From IMG/VR virus record IMGVR_UViG_3300028569_001145, positions 1 through 64,000 of that record: a stretch of 64,000 nt of DNA; one strand, 5' to 3'. The notes under the pieces are model-generated. The model was given only the letters and a program-made list of their open reading frames with translations. It was not told the DNA's origin and did no database searches. The position numbers were made by a program, and so were the translations under genes. Source of the DNA: a virus. Shown piece by piece: positions 2,990 to 43,924 of this stretch (positions within the stretch are counted from its first letter, which is position 1; every line of letters starts with the position of its first letter).

Positions 2990-5326
2990 ATGGTTATCGA
3001 AAAAAAGTACTACCTTGTTGATGATAAAGAGAAAGTAAATCTACTCATCCAACATATTAACGAAAAAGAAATAATTGCTTACGATACAGAAACTACTACT
3101 CTTAACCCACGTAAAGGAAAGATAGTAGGATTTTCAGTATCCGGAGAAGAAGGAGTAGGCTTTTATATGCCTACTATGGTTTGGAATGTAGAATCAGAAT
3201 CCTTAGAAGAATGTACCATTGAAGGTGTTGGTTGCAATAAAATAGCTAAGAAACTTATTGCAATGCTGGTTGGAAAGAAGCTTGTGATGCATAATGCTTC
3301 ATTTGACTGCCGGTATACTCAGAACTTTTACGGGGTTAACTTACTACCCTCTCTATGGGTTGATACTGCCCTTCTGGTTCATACAGTGAAAGAAGAAGGA
3401 GCATTTGGATATGGAGCTAGTCCTTTTGGATTAAAAACAATTGCAATCATGATTCAAGATAAGATTGGATTGAATGTGGCAGAAGCAGCCAACCAAGAAC
3501 AATTAAACCTAAAAGCTTCTATTAAAGAGAATGGCGGGGCAATCACTAAAGATAATTTTGAAATTTATAAAGCAGATATTAACCTCTTAAGTGAGTATGC
3601 TGCTGCAGATACAGACTTAACCTTGCGTATCTGTAATTACTTTCTACCGGTTTTAAAAGGGGAAGGCCTGGAGAAATTCTTTTTTGAAGAGGAGGTTATG
3701 CCCCTTTATAGAGAAGTAACTGTGCCGATGGAGATCAAAGGGATAGCCCTTGATATACCTCTGATAGAAAAGACTAGGGATGATATTATGGCCGATCAAG
3801 AACGTTACCGTAAGTTAGTTCTAGAAGAGCTTTTAAAACTACCTAAGGTTAAGGAATGGGTCATTGATACTGCCTTAAAAGAGTTTCCTCCTGGACATAA
3901 AGGCAAATGGGCACAGACTTTGGTTGAGCTTTACGGCCTACCTATGCCTAAGACTGCCCGGGGAGTATCTTTGAAAGAAGCTAATATTTTAGCTCTAGAA
4001 GAACATCCGGTAAGAGAGTACCTACTTACAGCAGACTTGAGCCATTTACAAGAAGAAGTTGTGGTTAGAGTATCTATGAAGCTTTGGAAAGACTCTAACG
4101 ACGGGGAGTTTATTAATATACAATCTAAAAAGCAGTTGGGTGAGATTGCATTTAACTACTTGAAAGAGAAGCCGTTATCTAAAACTGCTAAAGGACAGCC
4201 TCAATTTGACGACGATGTCATTCAAGTTTTATCAGACAAATACGAGTGGTGCAAGAACCTACGTATCTACAATAAGCTTTTAAAGATTAAATCTACCTAC
4301 ATAGATCGATTTTACCAAGCAGCCGAAGATGGACGCTTCTACCCGTACTTTAAACAGAATGGAACTGTGTCTGGAAGATACGGTTCAGACCTACAACAGT
4401 TACCTAAGCCTAAAGAGGATGGGGAAGCTGATCCTCTAATCGTTAAGTATAACAACGAAATTAGAGCATTTTTTATTGCAGATGATGGATATTTATTTAT
4501 TGATAATGACTTTGAGTCTCTTGAACCTCACATCTTTGCCTCTATTTCAAATGATGCAAACCTTCAAGAGATCTTCAACCAAGGACACGATTTCTACTCT
4601 ACTGTCGCTATTCGAACTGAAAAGCTAGACGAGCAGAGAGACAAGTACCCCGACGGAGTTTCAGCCGATAAAAAGGCTCCTAACTTCCTAAAGAAGCTTG
4701 ATGCACCTAAAAGGAACCAAGCAAAAGCATATTCCTTAGGAGTTGCTTATGGAATGTCTCCTTATGCATTAGCAATGTCTTTAGGAGTATCTCAAGAAGA
4801 AGGAAACAGGCTTCACCAAGGTTACATGGAAGGATTTCCTGGGGTTGCTCAATGGGTTGAAAACTCAAGAGCATTGTTTAAAAAGCACGGTTACATTAGA
4901 AACCAAGTAGGACGAATCAGACACTTAGAAAGAGGGAAAGTTGTTTACGACAAATTCGGGGAAAAGATTATGGACTGGAAGTTTAGAAACGAACTAGCTA
5001 AAGAAGCAGGAGGAGAGCAAGTAAAGCAATACTACGGTGATTATAAAAACGCACTTAATAACTGCTTAAACTTCCAGATTCAATCACTAGCAGCTTCTGT
5101 AGTTAACCGAGCAGCTTTGAACATCAACAGGGAGTTTCAAGCCCGGGGATGGGATGGGCAGGTTATAGCCCAGATACATGACCAGTTGATTATTGGCATT
5201 AAGGAAGAATTAGCCGAAGAAGCTAAATGGGTTGTAAAAGACATTATGGAGAATACAACCAAACTTCCAGGAGTGACTTTAAAAGCACCGCCAGAAATTT
5301 CTAAAAATTTCCGCGATGGACATTAA
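2990..5326 (+). CDS. Family A DNA polymerase with 3'-5' exonuclease
   Basis: 778 aa replicative polymerase. The exonuclease domain has DTE (32-34), NASFD (102-106) and Y203-D207, a DEDDy set. In the polymerase domain motif A is DFESLEPH with catalytic D507 and steric-gate E512, motif B is R575...K579 to YG, and motif C is IHDQL with D731 followed by Q732 where HDE is usual. There is no 5' nuclease domain, as in other phage Pol A enzymes. It has its own promoter and is not coupled to the next gene. The Gln in motif C is the one unusual active-site residue. Confidence 0.96.
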   Translation: MVIEKKYYLVDDKEKVNLLIQHINEKEIIAYDTETTTLNPRKGKIVGFSVSGEEGVGFYMPTMVWNVESESLEECTIEGVGCNKIAKKLIAMLVGKKLVMHNASFDCRYTQNFYGVNLLPSLWVDTALLVHTVKEEGAFGYGASPFGLKTIAIMIQDKIGLNVAEAANQEQLNLKASIKENGGAITKDNFEIYKADINLLSEYAAADTDLTLRICNYFLPVLKGEGLEKFFFEEEVMPLYREVTVPMEIKGIALDIPLIEKTRDDIMADQERYRKLVLEELLKLPKVKEWVIDTALKEFPPGHKGKWAQTLVELYGLPMPKTARGVSLKEANILALEEHPVREYLLTADLSHLQEEVVVRVSMKLWKDSNDGEFINIQSKKQLGEIAFNYLKEKPLSKTAKGQPQFDDDVIQVLSDKYEWCKNLRIYNKLLKIKSTYIDRFYQAAEDGRFYPYFKQNGTVSGRYGSDLQQLPKPKEDGEADPLIVKYNNEIRAFFIADDGYLFIDNDFESLEPHIFASISNDANLQEIFNQGHDFYSTVAIRTEKLDEQRDKYPDGVSADKKAPNFLKKLDAPKRNQAKAYSLGVAYGMSPYALAMSLGVSQEEGNRLHQGYMEGFPGVAQWVENSRALFKKHGYIRNQVGRIRHLERGKVVYDKFGEKIMDWKFRNELAKEAGGEQVKQYYGDYKNALNNCLNFQIQSLAASVVNRAALNINREFQARGWDGQVIAQIHDQLIIGIKEELAEEAKWVVKDIMENTTKLPGVTLKAPPEISKNFRDGH

Positions 5327-9749: not shown

Positions 9750-11186
9750 ATGAAACAAGGTTATATACCAAAAGACAAAAGAAAGAAAATCTTATTGCTG
9801 TGTGATGACATTAGAGTTCATTCCGGCATCGCGCACATGGGTAGGGAATTGGTTATGAACACCGCCCACCATTACAACTGGGTTAATCTAGGAGGTGCAG
9901 TTAAACATCCGGAGGCCGGTCAAAGGTTTGACCTGTCTGAGGATACCAACAAACAGGCTCAGATTGAAGATTCGTCAGTGATGTTATACCCGACCGATGG
10001 GTACGGGAATCCAGATATCATCCGTCAGTTAATTCAGATGGAAAAACCAGATGCTTTATTTTTGATTACCGACCCTAGATATTGGGTTTGGTTATTCCAA
10101 ATGGAAAATGAAATTAGAAAGCATTGCCCGATTATATATTTGAATATTTGGGATGATTATCCGGCACCGTTGTACAATGAAACATTCTATGAATCTTGTG
10201 ATGCATTGTTAGGTATTTCAAAACAAACCGTCAATATCAATAAATTGGTGTTGGGTTCAAAGTCCGAAGGTAAACTTATTGAGTATGTACCTCACGGTGT
10301 GAATGAGAAGAACTTTCGTCCTTTGTCTAAGGAAGAAAAATCGTCTAGTGAATTTTTGGAGTTTAAAAATCAAATATTCCAAGGAAAGGAATTTGAGTTT
10401 GTATTATTTTTCAATTCAAGAAATATTCGCCGGAAACAGATTCCGGATGCAATCCTGGCCTTTAGGCATTTTGTTGATAGACTTCCTAAGGAACAGGCTA
10501 AGAAATGTCTCTTCCTTCTTCATACCCAACCGGTGGATGAACATGGAACTGATCTACCGGCTGTAATAGACCTACTATGTCCGGAGGAGTATTGTAATGT
10601 ATTCTTTACCGGTGGTATGTACGACCCCCAAAGAATGAATTGGTTATATAATCTAGCCGATTGCCAGATTCTTTTAACCTCGAACGAAGGGTGGGGTTTA
10701 AGTTTGACCGAAGCCTTGCTTGCTGGTCTGCCTATAATTGCCAATGTTACTGGAGGGATGCAAGACCAAATGCGTTTTGTTAAGGATGGTAAATGGGTTG
10801 ACTTTGATGAGGACTTCCCGTCCAATCATCGCGGTACCATTAAGGAACATGGTGAATGGGCATTCCCAGTATTCCCAACATCTCGTTCATTAGTAGGTTC
10901 AGTACCAACACCTTACATCTTTGATGATAGATGTGAACCAGAGGATGCAGCCGATCAAATTGAGGCAGTTTACAACCTAGGTCCTGAGGAAAGACAGAGA
11001 AGAGGTAATACCGGACGTGAGTGGGCTTTAGGTGATGAGGCTGGATTTACATCTGAAAAAATGGGTAACCGTGTAATTGAATACGTTGATGAATTATTTG
11101 ATACTTGGGAACCAAGAGAAAAATATGAATTCATTCTAGCAGGTGATTATAAGAAAAAAGTTTTAAACCATAAATTAATATATTAA
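9750..11186 (+). CDS. Glycosyltransferase, GT4 / GT-B fold
   Basis: 478 aa. The C-terminal Rossmann domain contains NEGWGLSLTEALLAGLPI (about 312-329), the E-x7-E donor-binding motif of GT4 enzymes. The N-terminal half begins KILLLCDDIRVHSGIAHMGREL, an acceptor-side start with a glycine loop. It transfers a sugar from a nucleotide donor to an unknown acceptor. Its stop overlaps the ATG at 11186 (TAATG), the ancestral start of the next glycosyltransferase gene. Confidence 0.88.
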   Translation: MKQGYIPKDKRKKILLLCDDIRVHSGIAHMGRELVMNTAHHYNWVNLGGAVKHPEAGQRFDLSEDTNKQAQIEDSSVMLYPTDGYGNPDIIRQLIQMEKPDALFLITDPRYWVWLFQMENEIRKHCPIIYLNIWDDYPAPLYNETFYESCDALLGISKQTVNINKLVLGSKSEGKLIEYVPHGVNEKNFRPLSKEEKSSSEFLEFKNQIFQGKEFEFVLFFNSRNIRRKQIPDAILAFRHFVDRLPKEQAKKCLFLLHTQPVDEHGTDLPAVIDLLCPEEYCNVFFTGGMYDPQRMNWLYNLADCQILLTSNEGWGLSLTEALLAGLPIIANVTGGMQDQMRFVKDGKWVDFDEDFPSNHRGTIKEHGEWAFPVFPTSRSLVGSVPTPYIFDDRCEPEDAADQIEAVYNLGPEERQRRGNTGREWALGDEAGFTSEKMGNRVIEYVDELFDTWEPREKYEFILAGDYKKKVLNHKLIY

Positions 11187-11230
11187 TGAAACCGTTATTT
11201 GTAATAAGTTGTCCTATTGATACCTACTCT
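11186..11230 (+). pseudogene. Displaced 5' end of a glycosyltransferase gene
   Basis: Fifteen codons, MKPLFVISCPIDTYS, then the frame runs into unrelated sequence at the endonuclease insertion. The same peptide start (KPLFVMSAPVDTYS) reappears at 11885 with different codons in front of the intact gene. This is the original start, left behind by insertion of the endonuclease gene; the TAATG overlap with the upstream gene is preserved. Confidence 0.85.
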
Positions 11231-11251
11231 ATAAGGATTTTAGTAGGGCAA

Positions 11252-11260
11252 CTATTTATA
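11252..11260 (+). promoter_or_regulatory. Late-type promoter box CTATTTATA
   Basis: Eight bases before the endonuclease ATG at 11269; it lies inside the inserted DNA, so it came with the mobile gene. Confidence 0.5.
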
Positions 11261-11268
11261 AATAAAGT

Positions 11269-11892
11269 ATGGGATGTAAAACAGGTAACTACGTATCTTG
11301 TGCTTATTGCACAAAGGAGGTTTATAAATCTAAATGGGAACTACGCAAAGCCACCAGGTACTTCTGCAGCAGAGAATGTGCAAGCAGGGGCCATAGTTTA
11401 TTTTTAACAAAACATGAATACACAAAAATACTATGTCCAGAATGCGGTTCTGAATTTCAGCAACACTGGAAAGGAGCAAAAAAATACTGCTCTACAAAAT
11501 GTGCAGCACGGCACAGCCTTTCTGTTATTAATGCAAAAGAGCCAAAAAAGAGAGGAACTAAACCTGAAAAATTATTTGCAGAGAAGTTGGAGGAGTGGGG
11601 GATTGCTTTTATTTTTCAAAAAAGTTTACCGTGGAAAAAAGGCTGGAAGAAATGGTTTGATTTTTACATCCCGGAATGGAATATGCTCATTGAAGTAGAC
11701 GGTGAATATTGGCATGGCAAAGACATAAAGACTAAAGACTTAAATAAACAACAATGGAATACTCGAAAAAACGACAGGTTAAAAAGCTACCTTGCAAAAA
11801 AACAAAACTACAAACTGCTCCGGGTATGGAGCTTAGAAGTACAAAAACTAACATATGAACAATTAAAAACTTACAATGCAGAATATGAATAA
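11269..11892 (+). CDS. Vsr-like (EDxHD) homing endonuclease with zinc fingers
   Basis: 207 aa. Two N-terminal Cys modules (CAYCTKEV...CSREC and CPECGSEF...CSTKC) precede a nuclease domain with WFDFYIPEWNMLIEVDGEYW, the Asp-containing core of very-short-patch-repair-like homing endonucleases, and a C-terminal YKLLRVWSLEV. It sits inside the beginning of a glycosyltransferase gene and its last codons overlap the replacement ATG (ATGAATAA). Mobile and free-standing; no intron features are seen. Confidence 0.85.
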   Translation: MGCKTGNYVSCAYCTKEVYKSKWELRKATRYFCSRECASRGHSLFLTKHEYTKILCPECGSEFQQHWKGAKKYCSTKCAARHSLSVINAKEPKKRGTKPEKLFAEKLEEWGIAFIFQKSLPWKKGWKKWFDFYIPEWNMLIEVDGEYWHGKDIKTKDLNKQQWNTRKNDRLKSYLAKKQNYKLLRVWSLEVQKLTYEQLKTYNAEYE

Positions 11893-13201
11893 CAAACCCT
11901 TGTTTGTGATGAGCGCGCCTGTGGATACCTACTCAGGGTATGGTGCCCGTTCTAGAGATTTAGCCAAAGCAATCATCCAAACAGATAAGTATGATGTGAA
12001 AATCATACCTCAGAGATGGGGTAATACTCCTTGGAATTTTATTCAAGACCATCAGGAAAAATGGGGCTTTTTAAAAGACCATTTCCTACAACAGCAGTTA
12101 CCAAAACAGCCTGAAATTTGGGCTCAAGTAACTATCCCAAATGAATTTCAGCCAGTAGGTAAATTTAATATCGGCTTTACTGCCGGTATTGAATCTACAG
12201 TATGTGCTGCTGATTGGATTGATGGAATGAATAGAATGAATGTAAACTTTGTTTCTTCTGAACATTCTAAAAAGGTATTTCAAGAATCTTCATTTGAACA
12301 ACGTGATCAAAATACCCAACAGTTGATTCGTACTATTAAGCTTGAAAAACCAGTTGAAGTGTTATTTGAAGGAGCAGACCTGGATGTATACAAGGCATTA
12401 GAATCATCAACAGAATCAGTTAAAACCTTTGATAAACTTGCTAGCATTAAGGAAGACTTTGCTTACCTATTTGTTGGCCATTGGTTAAATGGGGATTTAG
12501 GGGAGGATAGAAAGAATGTTGGATTATTAATTAAAGCCTTCTACGAAACGTTTAAAAATAAGATGAAAAAACCTGCCCTAATACTAAAAGTATCTATGGG
12601 CGGTACCTCTTATTTAGATAGAGAAGAAATGTTGAAACGAATTGCCTTGATTAAAAAGACAGTTAATTCAACTAACCTACCTAACATTTATTTGTTACAT
12701 GGTGAATTCTCTGATGAGGAAATGAACTTACTCTATAATCACCCTAAAGTAAAAGCAATGGTTTCTTTAACTAAAGGTGAAGGATTTGGTAGACCATTAT
12801 TGGAATTTACTTTAAGTAAAAAACCAATCCTAACTACAGGATGGTCAGGCCATATGGATTTTCTAGATCCAGAATATACTACTCTGCTTTCAGGTCAATT
12901 AACTAATGTTCATCCAAGTGCTGCTAACGACTGGTTGTTAAAAGAAGCTCAATGGTTCTCTCCTGATCACGGCCAGGTGGGAAACTCACTAAAAGAACTA
13001 TTTGAAGAATATAAAAAATATATTCCCTTAGCACGTAAACAAGCTCATAAGTCTAAGACTGATTTTTCATTCGATAAGATGAAAGAATTACTAGAAGGGA
13101 GACTAGCAGCATTAGTACCTGAATTTCCTAAAGAGGTTAAACTTCAACTACCTACTCTAAAGAAAATCGAATTACCTAAATTAAAAAAAGTAAATGGATA
13201 A
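11885..13201 (+). CDS. Glycosyltransferase, GT4-like, with a replaced 5' end
   Basis: 439 aa from the ATG at 11885; an in-frame ATG at 11876 adds three residues but lies deeper in the endonuclease gene. The C-terminal domain has TKGEGFGRPLLEFTLSKKPI (about 295-314), the donor-site E-x7-E motif. The N-terminus SAPVDTYSGYGARSRDLAKA is the acceptor-side glycine loop. The first codons differ from those at 11186 although the peptide is nearly the same, so the gene was repaired or replaced on endonuclease insertion. It overlaps the next gene by eight bases. Confidence 0.87.
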   Translation: MNNKPLFVMSAPVDTYSGYGARSRDLAKAIIQTDKYDVKIIPQRWGNTPWNFIQDHQEKWGFLKDHFLQQQLPKQPEIWAQVTIPNEFQPVGKFNIGFTAGIESTVCAADWIDGMNRMNVNFVSSEHSKKVFQESSFEQRDQNTQQLIRTIKLEKPVEVLFEGADLDVYKALESSTESVKTFDKLASIKEDFAYLFVGHWLNGDLGEDRKNVGLLIKAFYETFKNKMKKPALILKVSMGGTSYLDREEMLKRIALIKKTVNSTNLPNIYLLHGEFSDEEMNLLYNHPKVKAMVSLTKGEGFGRPLLEFTLSKKPILTTGWSGHMDFLDPEYTTLLSGQLTNVHPSAANDWLLKEAQWFSPDHGQVGNSLKELFEEYKKYIPLARKQAHKSKTDFSFDKMKELLEGRLAALVPEFPKEVKLQLPTLKKIELPKLKKVNG

Positions 13202-40746: not shown

Positions 40747-40829
40747 GCAGATGTGGCGAAACTGGTAGACGCACTAGACTTAGGATCTAGCGTTGTAATG
40801 ACATGGGGGTTCGATTCCCTTCATCTGCA
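40747..40829 (+). tRNA. tRNA-Leu (TAG)
   Basis: Acceptor GCAGATG/CATCTGC, D arm GCGAAACTGGTAGACGC, anticodon arm CTAGA-CTTAGGA-TCTAG with TAG, long variable arm, T arm GGGGTTCGATTCCC. No CCA encoded. Confidence 0.95.
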
Positions 40830-40835
40830 CAATAA

Positions 40836-40908
40836 GCCCCCTTAGCTCAGTTGGTAGAGCTTCTGATTTGTAATCAGACGGTCGCAGGTTCGAGTCCTGC
40901 AGGTGGCT
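40836..40908 (+). tRNA. tRNA-Thr (TGT)
   Basis: Acceptor GCCCCCT/AGGTGGC (one mismatch), D arm GCTCAGTTGGTAGAGC, anticodon arm TCTGA-TTTGTAA-TCAGA with TGT, T arm GCAGGTTCGAGTCCTGC. Confidence 0.95.
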
Positions 40909-40911
40909 CCA

Positions 40912-41114
40912 AAGTGAAACTTTTCCTACATAGGACGGATAAGCACCGTTGAAAGAGAACTTGGCTTCGTGGGAGTAGCTACCCAATGAAGTAATCATGT
41001 CCCAAGTTGTAATGTGATGGACCCTGCTCTATGGTGCACTCATAACAGGTGAACAGTAAACTATGTTCAGTCAAATCCACAACTACGGTGAGCGTAGAGG
41101 ATTAGTTTCATTTA
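40912..41114 (+). ncRNA. Structured RNA candidate, about 200 nt
   Basis: The ends pair: AGTGAAACT (40912-40920) with AGTTTCATT (41106-41114), one G-U. Inside are AACTTGG/CCAAGTT enclosing CTTC.TGGG/CCCA..GAAG, ACGG/CCGT, TGAACA/TGTTCA and CTACG/CGTAG. It lies between tRNA-Thr and tRNA-Met. No reading frame explains it and it does not match tRNA, tmRNA or RNase P motifs I can see. Confidence 0.5.
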
Positions 41115-41118
41115 AATG

Positions 41119-41187
41119 GCGGATTGGTGTAATGGTAACATATTGGGCTCATAACCCAAAGTTTATAGTTCGAGTCTATAGTCCGCA
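41119..41187 (+). tRNA. tRNA-Met (CAT), first
   Basis: Acceptor GCGGATT/AGTCCGC, short D arm, anticodon arm TTGGG-CTCATAA-CCCAA with CAT, T arm TATAGTTCGAGTCTATA. Confidence 0.9.
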
Positions 41188-41237
41188 ACTAAACGTACTT
41201 AGTATCATACCATAAGAACTGCTACTAGGTCTTTTTA

Positions 41238-41301
41238 CAACCTGTACCCTTGAAAAACTCGTATTTAAAGATAAGCAGGTTGGTTCCGAAATAAAAGGGT
41301 A
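41238..41301 (+). ncRNA. Spacer pseudoknot 1 (tRNA-Met to element a)
   Basis: Stem 1 CAACCTG (41238-41244) with CAGGTTG (41276-41282). Stem 2 TACCCTT (41245-41251) with AAGGGTA (41295-41301). The stems interleave, as in an H-type pseudoknot. GTTCC (41283) and GGAAC (41311) can add a third helix. Confidence 0.55.
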
Positions 41302-41320
41302 AGAGAATAAGGAACAAAAT

Positions 41321-41393
41321 AGTCAGGTAGCTCAATGGTAGAGCGGGTCCGTAACAGGAGATGCCGTAGCAAGTTCGATTCTTGTCCTGACTA
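41321..41393 (+). ncRNA. tRNA-like element a
   Basis: 73 nt. AGTCAGG/CCTGACT acceptor, class I D arm AGCTCAATGGTAGAGC, T arm GCAAGTTCGATTCTTGT. The centre GGTCCGTAACAGGAGATGCC makes only TCC/GGA with a bulged outer stem and no T33-NNN-purine loop. It looks like a tRNA with an unusable anticodon arm. Confidence 0.7.
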
Positions 41394-41418
41394 CAAAAAA
41401 AATTAAAAAATAAATGTT

Positions 41419-41493
41419 ATGAAAGATTATTACATTGACAACAGAGAGTATTACTTATGGTGTATTGAAAATAATGTAATACCATATTGTTAA
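41419..41493 (+). CDS. Possible micro-ORF, 24 aa
   Basis: MKDYYIDNREYYLWCIENNV then IPYC, after an A-rich stretch. It overlaps pseudoknot 2, and the two readings compete; the short length leaves it doubtful. Confidence 0.25.
   Translation: MKDYYIDNREYYLWCIENNVIPYC
41428..41486 (+). ncRNA. Spacer pseudoknot 2 (element a to b)
   Basis: Stem 1 TATTACATT (41428-41436) with AATGTAATA (41473-41481). Stem 2 TATGG (41456-41460) with CCATA (41482-41486). Interleaved. Confidence 0.45.
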
Positions 41494-41498
41494 AATAT

Positions 41499-41581
41499 AG
41501 TCAGGTGGCGGAATGGTAGACGCTCCGGGGAATGGACACCGGTTAGAAACCATGTTGCAGGTTCGAATCCTGTCCTGACTA
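41499..41581 (+). ncRNA. tRNA-like element b
   Basis: 83 nt. Same acceptor pair, class II D arm GGCGGAATGGTAGACGC, T arm CAGGTTCGAATCCTG. The centre has CCGG/CCGG with a ten-base loop; ATGG in that loop can pair with CCAT downstream, so the anticodon domain itself could be a pseudoknot. No normal anticodon loop. Confidence 0.7.
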
Positions 41582-41585
41582 CAAA

Positions 41586-41655
41586 GTGTTGTTCCATTGA
41601 GAACGGAATGTATAAGAGTAAGACTAAACGTTGCTACAACACAGAGGATTTCTCA
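41586..41655 (+). ncRNA. Spacer pseudoknot 3 (element b to c)
   Basis: Stem 1 GTGTTGT (41586-41592) with ACAACAC (41636-41642). Stem 2 TGAGAA (41598-41603) with TTCTCA (41650-41655). Interleaved. It also holds TTGTTCC-N9-GGAATGTA, which recurs in element c. Confidence 0.5.
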
Positions 41656-41665
41656 CCCTCAACAT

Positions 41666-41762
41666 AGTCAGGTGGCGCAATTGGCAGACGTTGTTCCGAA
41701 GTACAAGGAATGTAAAATGGGTTCATACTCATAGCATGCAAGTTCGAATCTTGCCCTGACTA
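41666..41762 (+). ncRNA. tRNA-like element c
   Basis: 97 nt. D arm GGCGCAATTGGCAGACG, T arm GCAAGTTCGAATCTTGC. Centre: GTTCC/GGAAT with a nine-base loop GAAGTACAA, then a six-pair variable arm ATGGGT/ACTCAT. GTA is present, but the loop is too long and lacks T33, so a tRNA-Tyr reading is weak. Confidence 0.65.
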
Positions 41763-41764
41763 CA

Positions 41765-41812
41765 AATTCAGTTATCGGTGGGCAAGTCTGAATTAAAACA
41801 AAATCTTGCCCA
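41765..41812 (+). ncRNA. Spacer pseudoknot 4 (element c to d)
   Basis: Stem 1 AATTCAG (41765-41771) with CTGAATT (41788-41794). Stem 2 TGGGCAAG (41779-41786) with CTTGCCCA (41805-41812). Both perfect and interleaved: the clearest case. It starts three bases after element c and ends five before d. Confidence 0.7.
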
Positions 41813-41816
41813 ACAT

Positions 41817-41980
41817 AGTCAGGTGGCGGAATTGTTTGGCGCTGGGATAAAAACTGGGGCCTGAGACATTGGTAGACGCTATTATCTGAGACGCTGGGCG
41901 TGATTCTCGTTCGATTCGAGAAGTAGACTCTGGTGGGAGTAGGCGCAGCTCACTTACAGGTTCGAATCCTGTCCTGACTA
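41817..41980 (+). ncRNA. tRNA-like element d, with a nested tRNA-like core
   Basis: 164 nt, about twice a tRNA. The outer arms match the family. The insert holds TTGGTAGACGC and TTCTCGTTCGATTCGAGAA, a second D-loop and T-arm, as if one tRNA were inserted in another. No clear inner acceptor stem. Confidence 0.6.
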
Positions 41981-41994
41981 CACAGAGTTATCTT

Positions 41995-42047
41995 ATAATT
42001 TATTCTACTCTTTCCAAAAACGGTATAAATTATGGCAGCTTGGAAAG
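41995..42047 (+). ncRNA. Spacer pseudoknot 5 (element d to e)
   Basis: Stem 1 ATAATTTAT (41995-42003) with ATAAATTAT (42025-42033). Stem 2 CTTTCCAA (42010-42017) with TTGGAAAG (42040-42047). Perfect and interleaved. Confidence 0.7.
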
Positions 42048-42058
42048 ACAAGCAATAC

Positions 42059-42185
42059 AGTCAGGTGGCGGAATGGTAGACGCAGGTTGGTATTAAGTGT
42101 CGGTAATCAAGACGGGTGTATAAGCAATAGAAGCCCTGAGAGAAAAGCACACCTCATCACACAGGTTCGAATCCTGTCCTGACTA
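42059..42185 (+). ncRNA. tRNA-like element e
   Basis: 127 nt. Family acceptor, D and T arms. The 80-base centre has ATTA/TAAT and GGTGT/ACACC pairings but no recognisable anticodon arm. Confidence 0.6.
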
Positions 42186-42211
42186 CGGTTCTGTGCTGCC
42201 TAAACGTACAG

Positions 42212-42243
42212 GAGGATGTCAACTTTCCTCTAACAATAGTTGA
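42212..42243 (+). ncRNA. Spacer pseudoknot 6 (element e to f)
   Basis: Compact. Stem 1 GAGGA (42212-42216) with TCCTC (42226-42230). Stem 2 TCAACT (42219-42224) with AGTTGA (42238-42243). Interleaved with a one-base joint. Confidence 0.6.
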
Positions 42244-42246
42244 GTT

Positions 42247-42319
42247 AGTCAGGTGGCGCAACGGTGACGCTGTGGAGTCGCTCTCTGCATTGATACAGGT
42301 TCGAATCCTGTCCTGACTA
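42247..42319 (+). ncRNA. tRNA-like element f
   Basis: 73 nt. D arm GGCGCAACGGTGACGC, T arm CAGGTTCGAATCCTG. Centre TGTGGAG-TCGCT-CTCTGCA is a seven-pair stem with a five-base loop in place of the normal five-pair, seven-base anticodon arm. Confidence 0.65.
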
Positions 42320-42321
42320 CA

Positions 42322-42372
42322 AAAATACATCAACGTATTGGGGATCAAACCTCGTTAGGCTCTGGGTATTTT
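42322..42372 (+). ncRNA. Spacer hairpin between elements f and g
   Basis: AAAATAC (42322-42328) pairs with GTATTTT (42366-42372), enclosing AACG/CGTT. A closed long stem, not a pseudoknot. Confidence 0.4.
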
Positions 42373-42504
42373 AGTCAGGTGGCGGAATTGGTAGACGCTC
42401 ATAAAGTTGTGGAATAGCACTTTGAAAAGAGAAAGCTCACATTATAGTTAGAAGCTATTTATGGATAGTTGCAAATAATACAGGTTCGAATCCTGTCCTG
42501 ACTA
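42373..42504 (+). ncRNA. tRNA-like element g
   Basis: 132 nt. Family acceptor, D arm GGCGGAATTGGTAGACGC and T arm. Centre of about 85 bases with AAAGT/ACTTT and TGTG/CACA that interleave, then CTAT/ATAG. No anticodon arm. Confidence 0.6.
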
Positions 42505-42581
42505 CCAAAAAAAATCGTAGTACCGAAAGGGAACAATGTAGAAGGAACATCTACAGCAGGTTAAGCGATATCCTGTATTTT

Positions 42582-42654
42582 GGACTTTTAGCTTAATTGG
42601 CCAGAGCGTGACACTGATAAAGTCAAGATACAGGTTCAAGTCCTGTAGAGTCCA
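42582..42654 (+). tRNA. tRNA-Ile (GAT)
   Basis: Acceptor GGACTTT/AGAGTCC, D arm GCTTAATTGGCCAGAGC, loop CTGATAA with GAT on stem TGAC/GTCA plus an A-A mismatch, T arm ACAGGTTCAAGTCCTGT. Confidence 0.85.
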
Positions 42655-42765
42655 CACCTTAAAACCGATTCGGGTTCGTGAACAAGGGAGGCCCGTTCTT
42701 CTCGTGCAAGAAAGAAATCACGTTAAATCTCCTCATTCCAGGTGGCGGCGGTGACCTGGTAATAT

Positions 42766-42837
42766 TACCTCCTCGTCTAACGGCAGGACAAGTGGTTTTG
42801 GTCCACTTAATCGAGGTTCGAATCCTTGGGAAGGTAG
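42766..42837 (+). tRNA. tRNA-Gln (TTG), slightly degenerate
   Basis: Acceptor TACCTCC with GAAGGTA (one mismatch), D arm GTCTAACGGCAGGAC, anticodon arm AGTGG-TTTTGGT-CCACT with TTG, T arm CGAGGTTCGAATCCTTG. One extra base separates T stem and acceptor. The hairpin CCAGGT...ACCTGG just upstream resembles a decayed D arm of the tRNA-like family. Confidence 0.65.
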
Positions 42838-42860
42838 CAATAGAGTTTTTGATTTTTGGA

Positions 42861-42869
42861 CTATTTATA
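42861..42869 (+). promoter_or_regulatory. Late-type promoter box CTATTTATA
   Basis: Four bases before the ATG at 42874. Confidence 0.55.
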
Positions 42870-42873
42870 TTAA

Positions 42874-43491
42874 ATGGTTAACATATCAAAGCTTAGAAAA
42901 TATCATTTCCTATACAAGACTACTAATCTTGTAAATGGGAAGTACTACTATGGAATGCATTCAACAAATAACCTTAAAGACGGTTATTTAGGCAGTGGAA
43001 AGTACTTATGGTATGCGATTAAAAAATACGGGAAAGAAAATTTTTACATTGAAATTTTAAAGTTCTTTGAAACAAGGGAAGCTTTAATAGAAGCAGAAAA
43101 GAAACTTGTAACTGTTGTCGAAGTTAATAATTCAAATTGTATGAATTTAAAACCCGGAGGTAAGGGGGGATTTAAAGACTCTAAACATAGGGAAGCTTTT
43201 GTTAATAGTATACCTGTAGATAAAAAAAGAGAATATGCATTTAAAAGACATAAACAAGGTGTTTTCGGTTTTAAAGGTAAAAACCATAAACCTGAAACTA
43301 TTGAAAAGATGAAGTTACATAAAGGTAAACAAGCAAAAGAAAAGAATTCTCAGTTCGGAACAAAATGGATTACAAATGAGATTGAAAATAAAAAAATAAA
43401 AGTTACTGATCAGATTCCAGAAGGATGGAGAGCGGGTAGAAAAATAAAGTTGGATTTTAAGCAAGAAGTTCGTATAATTATAGCAACATAA
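42874..43491 (+). CDS. GIY-YIG homing endonuclease inside the RNA array
   Basis: 205 aa. HFLYKTTNLVNGKYYYGMHS (about 10-29) is a GIY-YIG core of the Seg type; LGSGKYLWYAIKKYGKENF follows. HKPETIEKMKLHKGK is NUMOD3-like. It splits tRNA-Gln from the final tRNA-Met, and its 3' end carries the promoter for the downstream gene. Confidence 0.87.
   Translation: MVNISKLRKYHFLYKTTNLVNGKYYYGMHSTNNLKDGYLGSGKYLWYAIKKYGKENFYIEILKFFETREALIEAEKKLVTVVEVNNSNCMNLKPGGKGGFKDSKHREAFVNSIPVDKKREYAFKRHKQGVFGFKGKNHKPETIEKMKLHKGKQAKEKNSQFGTKWITNEIENKKIKVTDQIPEGWRAGRKIKLDFKQEVRIIIAT
43450..43480 (+). promoter_or_regulatory. Bacteroidota-type promoter
   Basis: TTG at 43450-43452, 20-base spacer, TATAATTA at 43473-43480, within the endonuclease 3' end. 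Confidence 0.6.
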
Positions 43492-43495
43492 AGGG

Positions 43496-43508
43496 AGTTC
43501 TTTGACAT
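43496..43508 (+). promoter_or_regulatory. boxA-like antitermination site, second copy
   Basis: AGTTCTTTGACAT, as at 40720. Its inverse GTCAAAGAAC occurs at 43828, just before the last tRNA, so the two could pair. Confidence 0.45.
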
Positions 43509-43535
43509 TTTAAAAACAAGAAAGGAAAAAACAAA

Positions 43536-43817
43536 ATGGAAATTACATCATTCGTTTTAGGTATGCTTACGGTTACAGGTTTGGCAATTGCTGTACTTGT
43601 AGTTTTAGGTATAGTTAAGATTTACAACCAAGGCAAGAAAATTGCAGAATTAAAACAATCAATTGGATTAGTTGAAAACAATTCAAACGATTGGATTATG
43701 CAACTAGAAGAACAAATGTGCAGGAATTTTGATGACATTAGACGTGAGTATTCGTCTTATGTAGATTCACGTATTGACAGGCTTCAGTCAAATAAAAAGG
43801 AGGCAATAACTAAATAA
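43536..43817 (+). CDS. Membrane protein with coiled coil, 93 aa
   Basis: One transmembrane helix (LGMLTVTGLAIAVLVVLGIV, about 8-27), then a coiled-coil region to the end. Between the boxA-like site and the last tRNA. Function unknown. Confidence 0.7.
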   Translation: MEITSFVLGMLTVTGLAIAVLVVLGIVKIYNQGKKIAELKQSIGLVENNSNDWIMQLEEQMCRNFDDIRREYSSYVDSRIDRLQSNKKEAITK

Positions 43818-43850
43818 TCATTAACCCGTCAAAGAACTTTTCCTTTATTT

Positions 43851-43924
43851 GGACCTTTAGCTCAGCAGGTTAGAGCAGCGCTCTCATAAAGCGAAGGTCT
43901 CTGGTTCGAATCCAGAATGGTCCA
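43851..43924 (+). tRNA. tRNA-Met (CAT), second
   Basis: Acceptor GGACCTT/ATGGTCC (one mismatch), D arm GCTCAGCAGGTTAGAGC, anticodon arm GCGCT-CTCATAA-AGCGA with CAT, T arm TCTGGTTCGAATCCAGA. Confidence 0.93.

Follow-up and report, generated by a model that had tools for sequence, protein, structure and literature searches.

A putative homing cassette in a phage glycosyltransferase gene, combining an endonuclease gene with a replacement 5' end for its target

The window, which is the whole 64,000-nt stretch of viral DNA that was analyzed, contains two glycosyltransferase genes, GT1 and GT2, that are separated by an endonuclease gene (HEG; Table 1). The TAA stop codon of GT1 (11184-11186) overlaps an ATG (11186-11188), from which a 44-nt GT2 start extends to position 11229, reading MKPLFVISCPIDTY followed by the two bases TC. 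A second GT2 start, with its ATG at 11885 (MNNKPLFVMSAPVDTYSGYGARS), overlaps the stop of the HEG by 8 nt in the form ATGAATAA; the ORF tool had placed this start at 11876, an earlier in-frame ATG. No paralogue of the HEG or of the new GT2 start that could explain the insert is found elsewhere in the genome. One 480-aa open frame of this phage contains a second, weak (35%) relative of the catalytic part of the endonuclease (L179, genome positions 86427-86639).

Table 1. Features of the GT1-GT2 region, in window positions
Feature	Position	Strand	Evidence
GT1, upstream glycosyltransferase (group 1)	9750..11186	+	Pfam PF00534 4.4e-11, phrog_2170 2.1e-18
Original (displaced) GT2 5' end, ATG...GATACCTACTC, TAATG overlap with GT1 stop	11186..11229	+	0 mismatches to the empty sites L001/L002
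Left end of the putative cassette and 39-nt leader, TATAAGG...CTATTTATAAATAAAGT	11230..11268	+	absent from L001/L002; homologous leader and same left boundary in L082/L083/L084
HEG, Vsr/EDxHD-like endonuclease, 207 aa, CxxC pairs in N-terminal half	11269..11892	+	profile matches
Replacement GT2 5' end (MNNKPLFVMSAPV)	11885..11923	+	10/30 nt unlike the empty-site allele; overlap with HEG stop
23-nt core GATACCTACTCAGGGTATGGTGC	11924..11946	+	same as empty site; insertion point after 11th base
GT2, re-completed glycosyltransferase gene	11885..13201	+	open over whole length
Near-identity tract to L001/L002, centred on insertion	10830..12920		extends some 400 bp on the left and some 1000 bp on the right; limits approximate

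Two related contigs without the HEG, L001 (4.3 kb) and L002 (37 kb), show 98.4% identity over 4.3 kb and represent the uninterrupted state. Behind GT1 they carry TAATGAAACCGTTATTTGTAATAAGTTGTCCTATTGATACCTACTC, which is the old start of the window and identical to it up to TACTC, and then continue with AGGGTATGGTGC into the body of GT2. Because both contigs read from the old start straight into GT2, the insertion point is TACTC^AGGG, located in the Ser codon of DTYSGYG. An earlier note on this DNA had claimed that an endonuclease gene was inserted in a glycosyltransferase gene, of which the start at 11186, with its TAATG overlap, was the original one. Both claims are borne out by the empty sites, in which an 11186-type start lies intact directly after GT1; this is the opposite of an 11885-type start in that position, which is the arrangement that the note had named as its refutation. 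In fact, a degenerate pattern for the 11885-type start (PLFV[I/M]SAP[I/V]DTY, in any codons) had 0 matches in IMG/VR. In about 165 related loci the start of the same gene shows a residue-by-residue alignment with both the old and the new start, and this alignment, together with the recurrence of the insertion point to the base in the loci L082 and L084 (see below), rules out chance.

The comparison with L001 reveals how the new 5' end relates to the displaced one. Within the first 10 shared codons 7 codons, 10 of the 30 nt and 3 amino acids are different, and the new end is one codon longer (MNNKP versus MKP). The following 7 codons (DTYSGYG) are the same, 3 of the subsequent 13 differ, all synonymously, and over codons 31-340 there are 33 changed codons with 4 amino-acid changes. 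The assertion that most codons differ between the two starts is therefore correct upstream of DTY and fails from DTY onward. The open reading frame of GT2 over its whole length and the mostly silent nature of its differences to L001 agree with the claim that the insertion did not kill the gene. The claim that the new 5' end came with the insertion is supported as well.

With respect to the origin of the new end, the 10/30 differences rank near the 90th percentile of the differences between lineages. The nearest relative of the new segment among 168 aligned loci differs at 9 of 33 positions (median 14), and none is close. MNNKP starts also occur in the lineages L004, L091 and L092, and the SAPVDTYSGYGARS residues in L116 and L177. 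GTDB genomes offered as source only GT2 relatives at 59-66%, and a donor with the exact new 5' end of the window was found in neither IMG/VR nor GTDB. The simplest reading would be that the new 5' end is an allele from an unsampled lineage, rather than the result of codon-by-codon escape in place. Thus, of the start that was described as 'duplicated and recoded', the two copies are indeed present, whereas 'recoded' is better read as the acquisition of another lineage's allele (10/30, MNNK and SAPVDTYSGYGARS; compare L092, L116 and L177).

Weak to moderate profile matches suggest that the endonuclease belongs to the EDxHD/Vsr-type family. The protein matches Pfam Vsr (E=7.9e-6; 26.1 bits, which is below the cut-off of 27), phrog_9084, annotated as homing endonuclease (4.2e-12), and phrog_559 (1.1e-18), and shows a weak in-register profile match to the catalytic region of PDB 3R3P (E=0.06). 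The residues E100, D131, E142, D144 and H149 are invariant across three homologues. The matches among the Pfam and PHROG profiles were to Vsr and phage endonuclease families and none was to LAGLIDADG. An AlphaFold model derived from three sequences had a pLDDT of 44 and was too poor to use. In the window the leader folded no better than shuffled sequences did (z 0.24 and -0.16), and for L082/L084 the folding signal was weak (z about -1.3). The motif TATAAATA at 11257 in the leader is not put forward as a promoter, as it lies too near the ATG of the HEG and is inexact in L082. The same motif, the T4 late promoter box, is over-represented in the window (25 sites versus 11.3 expected; 0 of 100 shuffles reached 25), mostly on the - strand from 23 kb onward.

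A search with the HEG revealed a second lineage that carries the gene between GT1 and GT2, represented by L082/L083 and L084 (60-62% protein identity), which stem from three other metagenome data sets. In these loci the HEG is located at the same base and the left end of the insert is shared, TC^TATAAGG (TC^TATAAGGA...CTATTTATAA). To the left of it, L082 and L084 read AGTCCCTTAGACACTGGTTC, which translates to S-P-L-D-T-G-S when read in frame with the old start, the region of the ATG being lost. We consider this stretch to be the decayed old start. A match of that quality occurs nowhere else in the 26,092 positions of L082/L084, although its rarity is somewhat overstated, considering that Leu was allowed at the Ile position after the sequence had been seen. 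At the right joint the same overlap is found, as ATGAATAA(C/T)AAACC, followed by an MNNKP start, and the new GT2 start reads DCYSGYSARSRD. Around the insertion point 15-16 of 36 nt in GT2 of this lineage deviate from the HEG-free consensus; in 42 HEG-free relatives this number is 0-6. Farther upstream GT2 of this lineage hardly deviates. Both HEG-containing lineages thus have their local divergence concentrated at the site, albeit in different parts, namely upstream in the window and in the core in L082/L084. Between L082 and L084 the HEG has 74 changed codons and 20 amino-acid changes; the differences in both HEG and GT2 are mostly silent (a codon count for GT2 was left out as the two are out of register through an indel). 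Old start, insert and new start constitute a conserved arrangement, which is fresh in the window and old in L082/L084. To the left of the decayed start, L084 has a further ORF of 165 aa as well as a copy of the tail of GT1, an arrangement that suggests that the insert moved together with its left arm. In L082 (3243-5186) two more endonuclease genes, one of the GIY-YIG type and one HNH-like and Cys-rich, flank the gene downstream of GT2.

The insertion is surrounded by a tract in which the window is nearly identical to L002, within DNA that is otherwise 30-45% different. Going leftward the divergence per 100 bp is 0, 2, 3, 8, 18, 31 and 34%, and then mostly 25-50%; about 1 kb from the insertion, a stretch of 200 bp is exceptional in having 6-9%. 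To the right the divergence is 5, 4, 8, 0, 7, 2, 7, 2, 3 and 3%, and then 23, 22, 15, 38 and 45%. A tract that is centred on the HEG is the pattern that homing with co-conversion would leave; it is consistent with homing and no proof of it. The tract also points to a HEG-carrying phage of the L001/L002 type as the putative donor in the latest transfer.

Taken together, the empty site, the insertion point, the chimeric and intact GT2, the boundaries that recur in a second lineage and the conversion-like tract, all of them read directly from the contigs, favor the view that the insert is a homing cassette, composed of an endonuclease gene and a replacement 5' end for the target gene (probability about three in four). 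The cassette would consist of a short leader, the EDxHD/Vsr-type endonuclease gene and a substitute 5' end of GT2. What we infer are the remaining steps: that the nuclease cuts, at which exact target, in which direction the latest transfer went, and that the carrier is protected. The endonuclease would cut the uninterrupted GT2 at or near the DTY/S codons, and repair would copy the cassette from a carrier phage, with a left arm formed by GT1 plus the old start and a right arm formed by the body of GT2. To the left of the cassette, the start of the recipient would then stay behind as a scar, and GT2 would become a chimera of a donor 5' end and a recipient-type body. Moreover, the coupling of the new start to the HEG stop (ATGAATAA) would replace the old TAATG coupling to GT1, and the substituted 5' end would protect the carrier from its own nuclease.

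That the new 5' end would resist the nuclease, as the note had put forward, is suggested by the sequence. The old copy is cut off from the right half of the target, and in the new copy either the left half (window) or the core (L082/L084) is changed; hence neither copy equals the original site, which would make the carrier immune. The main caution is the 23-nt core, which is unchanged in the window: a nuclease that reads the core only would cut its own carrier. As the core (GATACCTACTCAGGGTATGGTGC) is the same in the empty site and the new copy, any resistance would have to come from changes outside it, mainly upstream. Arguments against the cassette are also that different parts of the region are altered in the two HEG-containing lineages, that the searches of IMG/VR and GTDB yielded no donor of the exact new end, and that the profile matches of the endonuclease are weak to moderate. 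EDxHD enzymes can contact very long targets, of about 60 bp in the case of I-Bth0305I (PMC3943268), and such lengths leave room for resistance through flanking bases.

The strongest competitor of the homing cassette is ordinary phage mosaicism, in which a HEG located between GT1 and GT2 of a divergent phage was acquired by non-homing recombination with a sloppy left junction, the nuclease having no part in the new start. The presence of other ORFs between GT1 and GT2 in many relatives (L013, L058, L064, L080, L091 and L092) indeed marks the junction as a general insertion place. However, those inserts are positioned exactly between the genes and do not have a duplicated start, for which reason they were also rejected as duplicated-start cases, whereas only the HEG cassette is found 44 nt inside GT2, where two lineages share the insertion point to the base and the conversion-like tract is centred. 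We regard mosaicism as unlikely. Alternatively, the gene start may have been duplicated locally, on either side of the inserted HEG, and synonymous changes that escape the nuclease may then have been selected. This would account for the juxtaposition of 7 changed codons out of 10 and 7 unchanged ones, and for the fact that 7 of 11 changed codons are GC-rich at the third position, a proportion that is reached by about 3% of the 11-codon stretches in the window ORFs. Yet the extra codon, the three amino-acid changes and the residues typical of other lineages speak against it, and 10/30 substitutions next to a remainder that has diverged 2-5% are better explained by import. We regard a duplication as quite improbable. 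An assembly chimera, in which the start of a HEG-free strain was joined to the HEG and gene of a HEG-containing strain, is conceivable for a metagenome-derived virus record with close HEG-free strains. The conserved arrangement in L082/L084 is a strong argument against it, as the same left and right joints and the decayed old start recur in three contigs from three other data sets, at 62% HEG identity; such an artefact is very improbable. Finally, although a HEG inside a gene is usually intron-borne, splicing of the old start to the downstream gene has a negligible chance: Rfam revealed no intron, and a group I intron-encoded endonuclease was rejected on that ground. The HEG is a separate ORF and classifies as free-standing, with no intron or intein around it; 39 nt separate its start from the break, and its end falls within the region of the new start codon. 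Moreover, the downstream gene has its own start, so that splicing would duplicate the N-terminus.

The proposed homing cassette has parallels outside the phages. In Torulaspora and Lachancea yeasts, FBA1 receives a new 3' end from the WHO elements, by which its old end is pushed aside (Coughlan et al. 2020, PMC7282813). As is proposed for the locus described here, the endonuclease gene adjoins a full-length target gene, the end of which is replaced at each integration, the former end of the recipient persists as a fragment that decays and provides a homology arm, the target becomes chimeric, and no splicing is involved (PMC7282813). Accordingly, the displaced end is found intact in the empty allele (L001, L002), GT2 is a chimera with a new end that differs from L001 at 10/30 nt and by 2-5% thereafter, and the old fragment lies beside the HEG, fresh in the window and decayed in L082/L084. 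The WHO elements differ in that they reside in yeast nuclear genomes, encode a LAGLIDADG nuclease and target the 3' end of FBA1; moreover, cutting and allele-specific resistance were shown in yeast (PMC7282813), whereas both are predictions for the phage cassette. Membership of the WHO family was rejected on basis of the different nuclease family and the lack of a LAGLIDADG match, even though the cassette would work like one.

In the mobile ORFs of fungal mitochondria (atp6 of Allomyces and atp6, atp9, cox2 and nad3 of Glomus) an endonuclease ORF likewise brings a foreign, mostly silently different gene end, with the native end remaining beyond; there the C-terminal end is concerned and the nucleases are of the LAGLIDADG or GIY-YIG type (PMC3630166). 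According to extracts of PMC2988022, the free-standing T4-type HEGs SegF, SegG and MobE share with the cassette that they are intronless, are located beside their likely target and have overlapping start and stop codons, and their flanking co-conversion would be another parallel; but their positions are intergenic, or they divide a gene into two halves that both work. The same extracts describe no displaced and re-supplied gene start for these HEGs, and we found no report in the open-access literature of phage elements that provide their target with a new 5' end. I-Bth0305I has a Vsr-related catalytic domain (PMC3943268), which the HEG may share, as its matches to Vsr and, weakly, to 3R3P in the catalytic region suggest; unlike the HEG, it is intron-borne.

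We lean slightly towards the more general view that the cassette represents a phage family of end-replacing homing elements of separate origin from WHO and the fungal mobile ORFs, which would replace the 5' end and the translational coupling of the target, spread between Bacteroidota-type phages, and rewrite the N-terminus of the glycosyltransferase at each homing, so that the carrier is immune. Besides introns, inteins and intergenic sites, bringing a spare end would be a way for a selfish nuclease to live inside a coding gene without killing it. If true, unrelated nucleases would employ the same solution, at either gene end, in the nuclei of yeasts, the mitochondria of fungi and phages. With an empty site, a recent insertion and old ones all available, cutting, co-conversion and self-immunity are directly testable.

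The GT1/GT2 junction is an insertion hotspot more generally. Unrelated ORFs, with the GT2 start intact, are found in L058 (3681-5010; one of these looks like an HNH endonuclease), L013 (4267-5020), L080 (4423-5000) and L064, L075 and L077 (4743-5000). A 165-171-aa ORF is located exactly between the two genes in L084 (3429-3926; this copy had no PHROG match), L091, L092, L094, L095, L096 and L116. L177 (2190-2993) contains another Cys-rich endonuclease-like ORF in this place (phrog_1271, 8e-9), the leader of which (CTATTTATAATAGAGAATGG) resembles that of the L082 HEG; no old-start remnant was seen there, and GT2 itself is broken near 3525-3596. L008, L017, L019 and others, with a tblastn span of about 1900 bp, were rejected as further insertions, as the matches represent the GT1 paralogue plus GT2.

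GT1 is interrupted in two relatives after codon ATT (CDDI^RMHSG), by 36 nt in L116 (about 1028-1085) and by 38 nt in L177 (713-775). The interruption comprises a stop codon (TAA or TGA) and a strong hairpin (z -3.7 and -4.9; the stems differ yet stay paired), followed by ATC AGA ATG. It resembles the translational bypassing of T4 gene 60, with ATT as take-off and ATC as landing codon, both for Ile; a pattern search of IMG/VR yielded no further copy. The window also contains eight tRNA genes and a freshwater-1 RNA (RF02979) at 40747-43924.
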